31,851 bases of DNA from a virus, in IMG/VR virus record IMGVR_UViG_3300022847_000018, positions 1-31,851 of that record; one strand, given 5' to 3'. How positions within the stretch are numbered: position 1 is the stretch's first letter; every line of letters begins with the position of its first letter. A program made the position numbers and the translations under genes. The notes below the pieces were generated by a model that saw only the letters and a list, made by a program, of their open reading frames with translations, did not search any database and had not been told where the DNA came from. This document shows, piece by piece, positions 7,585 to 30,617 of the stretch.

Positions 7585-7646
7585 CGAAGATTTTCACTCT
7601 TTCCGACTCTCTCAAATACCCAACCCATTGTGAAAATTAACCTTCG
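7585..7646 (+). other. long inverted repeat after the HTH frame
   Basis: ATTTTCAC (7590-7597) and GTGAAAAT (7630-7637) form a perfect 8-bp inverted repeat. They are flanked by CGAAG (7585-7589) and CTTCG (7642-7646), which can extend the stem across a 4-base bulge. The plus strand continues TTTTCTTT. It may be a weak terminator for the HTH transcript. The rest of 7575-7824 holds only one doubtful small ORF. Confidence 0.3.
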
Positions 7647-7672
7647 TTTTCTTTGAGCTAAAATCCAGTGGA

Positions 7673-7774
7673 TTACCGAGAACGGTGTCCGGAAAATGCA
7701 GCAGCTGCTGTGGAGTCATTCATAGAAGCAAAGCCTACACCGGCATTAGCCGTCTGCAGAAACTTATCACTCAT
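7673..7774 (-). CDS. possible 33-aa ORF after the holin gene
   Basis: Starts MSDKFLQTANAG and ends FSGHRSR with TAA at 7673-7675. The frame is open for about 20 codons further upstream (IDIDNEIGQIKDRQNQ), with coding-like composition but no start codon, so it may be the end of a decayed gene. There is no Shine-Dalgarno and no known family. It could also be chance. Confidence 0.25.
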   Translation of the reverse strand: MSDKFLQTANAGVGFASMNDSTAAAAFSGHRSR

Positions 7775-8509: not shown

Positions 8510-9679
8510 TCATACGCTAAGGCCTAAATAAAAATTCGGAGCGGTTTTCTTACTGCTAAAGTCAAGAGAATTACCCAAGTCCTCTTCTGGAAAATGGAGA
8601 TCCCATTCATAGTGTATCACAGGGTGGCCGTCAATGACAAGGTTAGCTTGCTTCGCCGCCTGATTCCATTTTTCCATCTGATTCCATTCCTCGTAAAAAT
8701 CGGAAGCTGTGAGAGTAGCGATAGTCCAGCCACTCATCTCAATAATATCCCCAGGTGTTTCTCCACCTTTCGGGTGACGGGGTTGACAGGCAATAGCTGT
8801 TAATTTCTTCAAGTCATATAGTTTCATAGCTACGTGAATCGGGCTTTTGTAAACCATACCACCGTCCACAAGTAGCTCATTTTCTTTTTCAACAGGATCA
8901 AATACAACAGGAATAGCGGTTGAGCCTATGATATAATCAAGATCACTTTCAGTAACCACTTGTCCTTTGGCTATTTTGTGCTGACGGTATAGCGTAGGTT
9001 GATCGGGACGTTGCACAATTACATAGCTACACCAGTAATCAACATTCACTTTTTTACCTACAACATGCTTCCTGAGAAGTTTCCTAAAAGGATCGTTACT
9101 CCACTTCGCTAATTTTGGTTTTGCTATACCAAGTTTATAAAAACCAAGATTAAGAAGTAGTGAGATGTTCCGGCGCTTTCTGTAAGCCTGTGAAGGACTC
9201 ATATTCGTCCAAATTCCTTCTAAAAGATGCACCTGACCAGTGGCTGCCATGATACCGTTTGCCGATCCAATAGAATTGCAAAATATAGCGCCTATGTCAT
9301 CCTCAATACCTGGCCATAAGGCTGTCAGCTTTCCAGCTTGCCATGCGCCGTTAGAACCGCCCCCCGGTAAGATTAAGGCGTGGGTTTTCATAATTTTTTC
9401 GGCTACACTTTCATAAGTCTGATCAAAAATAGAAGGTTTACAAGGATATATTTTTCTCCAATCAGTAGGAAACGGCTCCACTATTAAGTAATCACCTAAA
9501 GAGCATTTCATCTCGCCTTCTAATGTAGGTATAATCAAAATCGGTTTTCTTTCTATGTCCCAATTATGAGATATATTCCCTTGTATACTTTTGGCCCAAG
9601 TGTAAACACTATCTTTTGTCTCATTGGTAAACCTTACAGCTTCAATTTCAATCGGTTTTTTTCTATATTTTCCCATCAT
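8510..9679 (-). CDS. patatin-like phospholipase with N-terminal phage domain
   Basis: 389-aa fusion. Residues 1-92 are a small domain common as a free-standing phage protein (KYRKKPIEIEAVRF, then GDYLIVEP, then YPCKPSIFDQTYE). From M97 on it is a patatin-like acyl hydrolase: oxyanion loop GGGSNGAWQAG (106-116), nucleophile S136 in CNSIGSANG (the first Gly of GxSxG is Cys), and the DGG catalytic Asp at 272. Expected activity is cleavage of acyl chains from membrane lipids. The join sits exactly at a 29-bp repeat that duplicates the patatin start. An internal start at 9389-9391 would give a normal-sized 293-aa patatin. The location beside holin-like genes suggests a membrane or lysis role. Confidence 0.85.
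   Translation of the reverse strand: MMGKYRKKPIEIEAVRFTNETKDSVYTWAKSIQGNISHNWDIERKPILIIPTLEGEMKCSLGDYLIVEPFPTDWRKIYPCKPSIFDQTYESVAEKIMKTHALILPGGGSNGAWQAGKLTALWPGIEDDIGAIFCNSIGSANGIMAATGQVHLLEGIWTNMSPSQAYRKRRNISLLLNLGFYKLGIAKPKLAKWSNDPFRKLLRKHVVGKKVNVDYWCSYVIVQRPDQPTLYRQHKIAKGQVVTESDLDYIIGSTAIPVVFDPVEKENELLVDGGMVYKSPIHVAMKLYDLKKLTAIACQPRHPKGGETPGDIIEMSGWTIATLTASDFYEEWNQMEKWNQAAKQANLVIDGHPVIHYEWDLHFPEEDLGNSLDFSSKKTAPNFYLGLSV
9368..9396. repeat. 29-bp direct repeat, copy A (inside patatin)
   Basis: Perfect copy of the 29 bases at 9694-9722. On the minus strand it reads AAATT, then the ATG at 9389-9391, then codons for KTHALIL. It marks the start of the patatin domain inside the fused gene. Confidence 0.95.
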
Positions 9680-9717
9680 TTTACTCCACTATTTAAGATT
9701 AAGGCGTGGGTTTTCAT
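9676..9717 (-). other. 13-codon remnant of original patatin start
   Basis: ATG at 9715-9717 overlaps the stop of the upstream coiled-coil gene (ATGA). The peptide begins MKTHALIL exactly like the patatin domain, then diverges to NSGVK and stops at TGA 9676-9678, which overlaps the ATGATG start of the fusion gene. It appears to be the old 5' end of the patatin gene left behind by the insertion, and may now act as a translational relay. Confidence 0.6.
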
Positions 9718-9722
9718 AATTT
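9694..9722. repeat. 29-bp direct repeat, copy B (original locus)
   Basis: Identical to 9368-9396, offset by 326 bases. This copy overlaps the end of the upstream gene, so it occupies the ancestral start position of the patatin gene. The sequence between the copies encodes the N-terminal phage domain. Confidence 0.95.
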
Positions 9723-9944
9723 GTTAGATACGGTTTTAATGAATAGCTGAATTACCTCACGAAGTTCTTTATTAGTTTGAATCTGATCTTTAGATACCTC
9801 GAGTTGCTGTACTACAAGATGATGTATTGTTCCTATGTTAAGATCCTTTTCCTCAACAAGTTTTTTGATACTTTCCTTTTTGTCATCCATTTGACCTTCA
9901 TGGCTTTGAATAAGACGTTCAGACTCTTTATCATGGCGCTTCAT
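9714..9944 (-). CDS. 76-aa coiled-coil protein
   Basis: Highly charged, helical protein (KKESIKKLVEEKDLN, later DQIQTNKELREVIQLF) with no membrane segment. Its ATG (9942-9944) overlaps the stop of the 33-aa membrane protein upstream (ATGA), and its stop overlaps the remnant patatin start. The tight coupling of a tiny membrane protein to a coiled-coil protein within a lysis region invites comparison with spanins or holin regulators, but no lipobox or recognised family is present. Function unknown. Confidence 0.55.
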   Translation of the reverse strand: MKRHDKESERLIQSHEGQMDDKKESIKKLVEEKDLNIGTIHHLVVQQLEVSKDQIQTNKELREVIQLFIKTVSNKL

Positions 9945-13911: not shown

Positions 13912-14058
13912 TTAATCACCTGATTTTTTAAGGTTTTTCATCTCCTCTTTCAAGGCTCTGATTTGTGCGTTGAGAATCAGTATTTCCGCTTCATGTGAAA
14001 CGATCTGATTTTCCCATTGCGTTATTCGTGTTTGCATGACATCTTTTAGTGTTGGCAT
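13912..14058 (-). CDS. 48-aa coiled-coil protein
   Basis: Begins MPTLKDVMQTRITQWENQ and continues as a Glu/Ile/Leu heptad helix to KKSGD. The stop sits just before the next gene. It looks like a sibling of the 55-aa ORF upstream: both are short coiled coils ending in a charged tail and are only three bases apart. Perhaps it trimerises fibre parts. Function unproven. Confidence 0.5.
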   Translation of the reverse strand: MPTLKDVMQTRITQWENQIVSHEAEILILNAQIRALKEEMKNLKKSGD

Positions 14059-19023: not shown

Positions 19024-19420
19024 ATCGATACACGCCCTCAATACGATTTTTCCACCGGGGGCCGGTAAAGGATTCAATACACGAATCAGTTCCCTGGTAA
19101 GCGTGCAGCATTCTCCCGCGACCAACACAGATTCCCACGTGTGCCGGGAATCCTGAGATATTCAATACAATCACATCGCCATCTTTGATATTTTCTGACT
19201 TGTCAACTTTTGACCAGTTGAGCTTTTCGGCCTCAATAATACCGGCAATTTCCGGTCGCGCTTTGGTGTGTGGATAACTTTTTAGAAGTGGCAGATCGAC
19301 TCCGAGTTCATGCTTGTAATACAGGTACACCAAACCCCAGCAATCGCATGAATGCATACTCCGGCCGTGTTCGAGAAATCGAATACCAACATATTTTGAT
19401 ATGTCTGAGATGTTATTCAA
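19016..19420 (-). CDS. NlpC/P60-type peptidase (lambda K-like)
   Basis: 134-aa protein with the catalytic Cys in SCDCWGLVYLYY (C27), first His in FPAHVGICVG (H94) and a further His in MLHAYQG (H106). It is the length of an isolated NlpC/P60 domain, with no Mov34/JAMM domain. By analogy with the C-terminal half of lambda gpK it would cleave murein peptides during DNA entry or tail assembly. It overlaps the metallopeptidase gene by 8 bases and the J-like gene by 8 bases. Confidence 0.85.
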   Translation of the reverse strand: MNNISDISKYVGIRFLEHGRSMHSCDCWGLVYLYYKHELGVDLPLLKSYPHTKARPEIAGIIEAEKLNWSKVDKSENIKDGDVIVLNISGFPAHVGICVGRGRMLHAYQGTDSCIESFTGPRWKNRIEGVYRYE

Positions 19421-19727
19421 ATTTTCTACTCTTCATAAATTGATGGAGACAGCCACCGATATGCTGAACGAGGTGCTCGTCCCGTGTCAAATCGTGGTAA
19501 CAGCCTGAGTACAGGATCGCATGGACGAGTTCGTGATAGAACGTGCCCTCAAGCCTGCAGGGCGGAACCTCTTCCCCGCTAAGGCGAACATGGAGATCTA
19601 TCTTACCGTGGGCCTCGTCGCACTGGCCAAGGGTGTCACTGTTTTTCAGGTCGTCGATAAATCGAGTTTCCCATTCTTCGCCAAAAAGTGTGAAAGATGC
19701 CGGGATGTCAAAGTTTGGTTTTTTCAT
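19413..19727 (-). CDS. small HExxH zinc metallopeptidase
   Basis: 104-aa protein with the zincin motif FYHELVHAIL (H65, E66, H69) and a downstream DEHLVQHIGG that likely provides the third ligand (Glu84). The size and layout are those of compact phage zincins related to SprT/ImmA-like proteins. The lambda K protein carries a metal-dependent JAMM peptidase at this place; here a zincin of another family occupies the slot beside NlpC. Its start codon lies in the last of four tandem 16-bp repeats, each carrying an ATG. A murein or virion-processing role is inferred. Confidence 0.75.
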   Translation of the reverse strand: MKKPNFDIPASFTLFGEEWETRFIDDLKNSDTLGQCDEAHGKIDLHVRLSGEEVPPCRLEGTFYHELVHAILYSGCYHDLTRDEHLVQHIGGCLHQFMKSRKFE

Positions 19728-19777
19728 TGTTTGGTTTTTTCATTGTTTGGTTTTTTCATTGTTTGGTTTTTTCATTG
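19714..19777. repeat. 4 x 16-bp tandem repeat carrying start codons
   Basis: Four perfect copies of CAATGAAAAAACCAAA (minus strand) at 19762-19777, 19746-19761, 19730-19745 and 19714-19729. Each contains ATG plus the first codons of the metallopeptidase gene (MKKP). The unit is not a multiple of three, so the four ATGs lie in different frames; only the innermost (19725-19727) opens the gene. The other three each give an 11-codon peptide. Confidence 0.97.
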
Positions 19778-19855
19778 TGGGTCTCGCTGTATGAGTATTC
19801 GAGCGTCTATGTCATCCCCTTCAAACTGCATTATTGATTGCTCTATATCCTCCAT
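19772..19855 (-). CDS. 27-aa linking ORF
   Basis: ATG at 19853-19855 overlaps the stop of the DUF1833 gene (TGATG). The peptide starts MEDIEQSIMQFEGDD and ends RDPQ; its TGA (19772-19774) overlaps the ATG of the first 16-bp repeat. The overlaps on both ends suggest a translational relay. The acidic composition is plausible for a real mini-protein, but no function is known. Confidence 0.45.
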   Translation of the reverse strand: MEDIEQSIMQFEGDDIDARILIQRDPQ

Positions 19856-29471: not shown

Positions 29472-29491
29472 AAACCTATTTATAGATGGGG
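29472..29491. repeat. 20-bp element, copy 1
   Basis: Exact CCCCATCTATAAATAGGTTT on the minus strand, 14 bases after the zinc-ribbon stop and about 31 bases before the tRNA. Same as 30598-30617. It contains the small palindrome CTATAAATAG. Possible late promoter, processing site or regulator site. Confidence 0.85.
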
Positions 29492-29680: not shown

Positions 29681-30526
29681 CTATGCTGACTCTATTTGAA
29701 CTCCGGCCTGCGTGGCAAGGCGTTTTGCCTCGGCTGGATTATCAGATTCCAGTTTACCCTGTTCGGTAAGATTCCAGGTTTCTTTTTTATAAGGATTCAC
29801 GCCGCCCGGGTTACCACCGCCCTTATTGCCCGCCCCGCCTCCCTGGTGATCGGGTGCCGGACGGAAGTTTTTGGCAACTTCTGCCTTGGAAATGTTCTCG
29901 AGAATTTCCTCGGCGCCCTTGCCGTCTTTGTACTCACCACCAACGACGCGGTAACCACCTCCCTCATCCTGTACTTCCAGAGATTTCAACCGGTTGCGCA
30001 GTTCGACAAATTCAGATAGATCACTGTGCTCGATTTTCAGCAAAAAAGTGTCCAGGTCGTCCAGGTTCTTAAACCCAAAGCGTTCGGCCAGCATATTTCG
30101 TCGCCATTGTTTGAGGTGATTCTGTTTAAAGCGGTTTTCAACCTCTTCTTTTTCCGATGTGGCGGCCGCTAGTTCTTTTGTGTGCAGATCCCTGAGTTCT
30201 CTTTCTCTCTCGCGGACAGCCTCGGAGATGCGGCGGTTGATTTCCTTTTCATCCTTGGGATCCAATCCTGCCCCGGGGTTTTCCGGATCGATGTCCTTGA
30301 CCTTCTCCCATATGTCCAGATCCACGTCCTTGAATTGTGCAAGCTGCCTCTCTGCCTCAATCTTTAGATCACGTTCTTTCTCAAGGGCGTTCTTTACACG
30401 GTCAATATCCTCCTGGGTCTTAACTCCTTCAATGTTCAGCTTCCACTGTCCACCGGATTCGCTGTAAAATCCTTCAGCTCTTTCAGGGATGACTTCTTTG
30501 GTGGCGTAAATTAGTTTTAATTTCAT
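29681..30526 (-). CDS. capsid scaffolding protein
   Basis: 281 aa. An N-terminal segment (MKLKLIYATKEVIPERAEGF) is followed by a long charged coiled coil (about 35-150, with KNALEKERDLKIEAERQLAQ and ERERELRDLHTKEL), a 'LAERFGFKNLDDLDTFL' block, a Gly-rich linker (GGGAGNKGGGNPGG) and a C-terminal NPYKKETWNLTEQGKL motif, as in minor scaffold or P22-like/phi29-type internal scaffolds found beside HK97-type coats. It directs capsid assembly and is then expelled or degraded. Good positional agreement between minor head and capsid genes. Confidence 0.8.
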   Translation of the reverse strand: MKLKLIYATKEVIPERAEGFYSESGGQWKLNIEGVKTQEDIDRVKNALEKERDLKIEAERQLAQFKDVDLDIWEKVKDIDPENPGAGLDPKDEKEINRRISEAVRERERELRDLHTKELAAATSEKEEVENRFKQNHLKQWRRNMLAERFGFKNLDDLDTFLLKIEHSDLSEFVELRNRLKSLEVQDEGGGYRVVGGEYKDGKGAEEILENISKAEVAKNFRPAPDHQGGGAGNKGGGNPGGVNPYKKETWNLTEQGKLESDNPAEAKRLATQAGVQIESA

Positions 30527-30597: not shown

Positions 30598-30617
30598 AAA
30601 CCTATTTATAGATGGGG
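30598..30617. repeat. 20-bp element, copy 2
   Basis: Exact second copy of CCCCATCTATAAATAGGTTT (minus strand), five bases after the stop of the minor head gene and about 70 bases upstream of the scaffold start. Together with 29472-29491 it brackets the scaffold and zinc-ribbon genes. Confidence 0.85.

Follow-up and report, generated by a model that had tools for sequence, protein, structure and literature searches.

A duplicated patatin start on either side of a small phage gene and its probable insertion as an in-frame N-terminal domain

Phage insertions bounded by direct repeats of 29 and ~50 bp have already been published (PMC3029335). In Island3, a mycobacteriophage of cluster I, a single gene of 85 residues (gene 68) was inserted with ~50-bp direct repeats at gene ends and is absent from a close relative, and in LRRHood 29-bp direct repeats flank the insert holding genes 43-46 and are present as a single copy in relatives, according to the sections of that paper on these two phages (PMC3029335). 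Mycobacteriophage mobile elements (MPME) are likewise small insertions, with 439 bp placed close to the 5' end of a phage gene (PMC3029335), and morons, or mosaicism at gene boundaries, involve the exact addition of one gene between two neighbours (PMC3233612, PMC3029335). The published cases, in the parts of the account that treat them, leave open whether such repeats were made by the insertion or were sites of recombination between phages (PMC3029335). A wider question is why mosaic joints match gene boundaries, for which targeted recombination at short boundary sequences has been set against random joins followed by selection (PMC3233612).

Here we compare with these systems a locus in a 31,851-bp IMG/VR virus record, analysed over its whole length and referred to below as the window. 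The locus lies on the minus strand, has a G+C content of 36-42%, and is placed between tail genes on one side and recombination genes on the other. Its features, from upstream to downstream on that strand, are as follows.

9714-9944, minus strand: 76-aa gene, the open reading frame upstream of the patatin locus
9694-9722, minus strand: outer copy of the repeat, covering the last bases of the 76-aa gene along with the first 8 patatin codons; the probable ancestral patatin start
9676-9717, minus strand: 13-codon stub, MKTHALILNSGVK and a stop, read directly from the sequence; an apparently orphaned patatin start
9397-9693, minus strand: insert of 297 bp, comprising its own GGAG and a complete small phage gene minus the stop
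8510-9679, minus strand: fusion open reading frame, domain plus patatin-like phospholipase, 389 aa in one frame through the inner ATG
9398-9679, minus strand: phrog_419 or 'PGDYG'-like domain, residues 1-94 of the fusion
9368-9396, minus strand: inner copy of the repeat, with an ATG at 9391 that is residue 97, where the patatin domain begins

The two copies of the 29-bp direct repeat, AAATTATGAAAACCCACGCCTTAATCTTA, are exact (31 of 32 positions if extended), and with the exception of a 16-bp tandem array they form the longest direct repeat of the window. The longest exact direct repeat in 40 dinucleotide shuffles of the window was 18 bp, and the 29-bp repeat is thus far beyond chance. The sequence-only reading had proposed that the patatin start is carried twice, that the outer ATG overlaps the stop of the upstream gene, that the inner ATG opens the patatin domain, and that an ATGATG start runs in frame into patatin; each of these holds on inspection. 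The outer ATG (9717) overlaps, as ATGA, the TGA that ends the 76-aa gene, and it opens the 13-codon stub, whose stop overlaps the ATGATG (9679-9674) with which the fusion gene starts. A GGAG (9684-9687) lies within the insert, 7 nt ahead of the second ATG of the ATGATG, and a GGAG-type site is absent from the patatin ATG at both copies of the repeat. The original patatin was probably translated through its overlap with the 76-aa gene. Pfam and PHROG searches with the 76-aa gene gave no match, and its sole IMG/VR match (L003) was rejected as a chance coiled-coil similarity.

Two other repeats were seen in the window. The tandem array (19708-19787), with a 16-bp unit AATGAAAAAACCAAAC on the minus strand, multiplies the start-codon region of the gene at 19413-19727 and is thus a further case of a duplicated start in the window. 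An exact 20-bp repeat, CCCCATCTATAAATAGGTTT on the minus strand, occurs at 29472-29491 and 30598-30617, upstream of a 281-aa gene (29681-30526) and of the capsid gene, and may serve as a late promoter or as the binding site of a regulator.

The 389-aa product is a predicted patatin-like phospholipase, with PF01734 matched at residues 102-285 (E=1e-15, 58.8 bits against a Pfam curated cut-off of 27.7) within a patatin part that spans residues 97-389. The nucleophile Ser (in SIGS) and the Asp (in VDGG) are conserved, and the glycine-rich oxyanion loop is present as GGGSNGAWQ. The nucleophile elbow reads CNSIG (9266-9280, minus strand) in place of the G[IVT]SVG of most relatives, so that the first Gly, nearly invariant among the aligned relatives, is Cys here and GxSxG is not matched. 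The N-terminal part, residues 1-94, matches phrog_419 (E=8e-23) and is 49-59% identical to its nearest relatives. Its AlphaFold2 model (pLDDT 89) matches phage proteins in BFVD, several of them named PGDYG protein; a fold search of the PDB with the model gave no significant match, and no mention of PGDYG was found in the literature. The DNA between the repeat copies had been read in its entirety as a small phage domain, an identity that the PHROG match bears out, with the extent now corrected to an insert of 9397-9693 and with codon 95 of the fusion frame straddling the junction of insert and repeat.

Downstream of the holin, at 7612-7719 on the minus strand, lies the relic of a second, diverged patatin C-terminus (68% identity over 28 aa), from which we infer that another patatin gene once stood in the region; the relic belongs to the history of the region and lies outside the insertion. 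Elsewhere, in the 484-kb genome of an uncultured phage, a free-standing patatin directly follows a muramidase-like gene (L022:1420-2939), and this putative muramidase-patatin neighbourhood points to a possible place for phage patatins in lysis cassettes.

Both halves of the fusion are free-standing elsewhere. Patatin relatives came from 80 contigs of bacteria and 14 of viruses; those that were inspected begin at the patatin motif itself, all that were seen are free-standing, and in the best-matching host relatives the alignment begins near residue 97, which is the inner ATG. In Balneolaceae the patatin match begins at residue 95-98 in nine of ten genomes, while in the tenth the extra N-terminal part runs across a stop. 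None of the 18 patatin matches among 92 Balneolaceae genomes covers the domain, and the domain HMM found no match across 113 fetched patatin stretches, some of them overlapping. The domain, in turn, has no gene of its own here, being fused to patatin, whereas its relatives are mostly free-standing, as had been supposed: eight free-standing relatives that were compared end near TYExVxE and a stop, 71 of 90 HMM matches end within 10 residues of that terminus, and patatin is present in none of the roughly nine matches with longer tails. A fusion with unrelated flanks in all relatives, or a domain universally attached to this patatin family, either of which would have spoken against an insertion, was looked for and not found. 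Free-standing relatives stop after VAE or VSE where the window has TYESVAE-KI-MKTHALIL, which places the end of the insert at the natural last residue of the domain. As the last base of the insert (9397) and the AA of the repeat together make AAA, and a T at this position would give TAA, the stop may have been lost by a single change. Judged from these sequence comparisons, a small gene was very probably inserted into an older junction of the 76-aa gene and patatin.

We propose a model that covers the insertion, the duplicated start, the lost stop and the fusion, and we regard this model as a whole as likely. In the ancestor, the 76-aa gene would have been followed directly by a free-standing patatin, translated through the ATGA overlap of stop and start. 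A complete phrog_419/PGDYG-like gene, with its own ribosome-binding site, would then have entered the junction by illegitimate recombination, probably of an annealing or template-switch type, with the 29 bp that span the patatin start ending up on either side of the insert. Such recombination is plausible, since the phage encodes an annealing protein of the RecT type (phrog_148, E=1e-9) along with an SbcC-like protein and a Holliday-junction resolvase. The stop of the inserted gene would have been lost at the junction or through one later change, and having lost its stop the gene would now read into patatin as one protein. The 13-codon stub would be the surviving outer start and may still help ribosomes that leave the 76-aa gene to reach the start of the fusion. 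Insertion in one event is the most economical account. The sequence-only reading had also called the repeat a long target duplication and the stub a translational relay; comparison with relatives backs the insertion, and the repeat may be a true target duplication and the stub a true relay. For a target duplication made by one of the known small elements, 29 bp would be long. A transposon was rejected, the 297 bp holding only the domain gene and no transposase, as was an ultra-small mobile element of the MPME kind, from which the insert differs in length and anatomy. A search of the window for inverted repeats with arms of at least 18 nt found none at the insert ends, and with neither inverted repeats nor a transposase the idea of a mobile element was dropped.

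The same arrangement could have arisen had two phages or alleles sharing the patatin start recombined, one carrying the 76-aa gene before patatin and the other the domain gene before patatin, with an unequal or illegitimate join behind codon 8 of the former's patatin that brought in the domain gene of the latter; the repeat would then reflect shared ancestry and would not have been made by insertion. The patatin relic 0.9 kb downstream lends some weight to such an exchange, more than one patatin having passed through the region, as does the 29-bp case of LRRHood, for which the authors favour recombination with a second phage in the part of the paper that discusses it (PMC3029335). However, AAATT, with which the 76-aa gene ends, is part of the repeat, and a donor carrying domain and patatin could have it in common only by chance or after an earlier insertion at the same place; two events are needed instead of one; and the relic, at 68% identity over 28 aa, cannot have supplied an exact 29-bp copy. 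We consider an exchange of this kind unlikely. The relic, in showing that multiple patatin copies are possible, also speaks for a deletion, in which the first of two tandem patatins was cut to 8 codons and the loss extended as far as the ribosome-binding site belonging to a domain gene in front of the second patatin. This would require a very recent tandem duplication together with luckily placed deletion ends, and the shared sequence reaches just 5 bp ahead of the ATG, into the last bases of the 76-aa gene, all of which makes a deletion remnant highly improbable.

A relative with one copy of the repeat and an empty site, the check that had been suggested for the insertion, was sought for the window's own locus. 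Exact-pattern and single-protein searches of IMG/VR, made with patatin, the 76-aa gene and a 28-mer from the repeat, brought up no close relative, contigs related through capsid and tail proteins (L004-L009, L016-L020) held no patatin, a plasmid search returned one weak match, and no empty-site relative of this locus was found in any of these searches. The locus is covered by one contig only, and gain and loss look alike from the repeat alone. With a single contig, an error of assembly or of a base at the lost stop is possible: the repeat could join two strains or loci, 29 bp being shorter than typical read overlaps, or a base error could open the frame. The sole near-identical contig (L018) ends at window position 13,932, but it is a separate contig that matches 16.6 kb of the window at 99.98%; a chimeric join at a common 29-mer would leave a single copy; and the frames, ribosome-binding site and domain ends make biological sense. 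Such an artefact is, in our judgement, the least probable of the accounts considered.

For a relative of the domain gene, an independent pair of filled and empty sites is available from unrelated phages. In the Gordonia Soupsvirus Anon, gp48 is such a relative and stands between mazG and thyX, and MinecraftSteve, Rosalind and DekHockey33 have no domain gene and join mazG directly to thyX, with an empty site that reads aaccgATGAGCACCGTCAAG. The left junction in Anon is aaccgATGAGCACCGT-tcgtaagtaccgc (MSTV-RKYRKKP) and the right junction ttccga-ATGAGCACCGTCAAG, so that the 11-bp thyX start, ATGAGCACCGT, flanks the insert on both sides in the same geometry as in the window, with 11 in place of 29 bp. 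In both cases a gene of this domain family lies at a stop-start junction, and the enzyme gene that follows has its start on either side. Anon, for which empty-site relatives exist, differs in its shorter repeat, in that its stub is in frame with the domain, and in that the domain has kept its stop and hence is not fused to thyX. The mazG/thyX junction is an insertion hot spot. In Battleship and Soups it is occupied by another gene, of 69 aa (L227:1050-1259, L228:1048-1257), whose flanks have hardly more than the ATGA overlap in common.

The suggestion that gene capture at a start codon is a general route to new domains receives modest support, and it overlaps with the published cases. Exact repeats across stop-start junctions were found at further relatives of the domain gene, of 25 bp (L213/L209), 17 bp (L149 and L148), 15 bp (L146) and 13 bp (L220, whose flanks have no match among phages). 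Repeats of at least 13 bp occur at 6 of 87 domain genes (two of the six are near-identical) and at 7 of 359 other adjacent gene pairs from the same loci, and some of these control repeats likewise span starts; the enrichment at domain genes is modest. Among six Soupsvirus genomes we counted 13 distinct indels of roughly single-gene size, three of which have in-register exact repeats of 8-11 bp that hold the downstream start codon, as do 0.2% of 4,000 random placements, while the remaining ten have repeats of at most 5 bp. Start-spanning repeats are therefore real, yet they accompany a minority of indels. That small phage genes, notably the domain gene, repeatedly enter operons through a recombination process at work on stop-start junctions, which duplicates ~10-30 bp of the downstream start and sometimes makes the added gene an N-terminal domain, is a tentative idea that we would not yet expect to hold. 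If it were true, the patatin fusion would give a glimpse of phage domain fusions in the making. Inserts with a duplicated start on each side are a readable footprint of a recombination event, and with three such footprints among 13 indels the gene-boundary question becomes testable in existing collections of closely related phages.

Set against the described systems, the locus has direct repeats on either side of the added gene as in LRRHood and Island3, here 29 bp long and exact. In Island3, however, the repeat spans the 3' ends of two genes and no start codon, with no fusion described in the sections on that phage (PMC3029335), and the LRRHood insert is 1.35 kb with four genes and a repeat at a gene's 3' end, in the corresponding part of the same source (PMC3029335). 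MPME, as characterised there, is a conserved element of ~440 bp with inverted repeats and a 6-bp addition and has no long direct repeat (PMC3029335). Morons and boundary mosaicism, in the parts of the two papers that deal with them, usually lack a recognisable repeat, and the added gene remains separate (PMC3233612, PMC3029335). The case in the window is thus a variant of known phage mosaicism and not a new kind of system; what is new is the in-frame fusion together with the leftover 13-codon stub.
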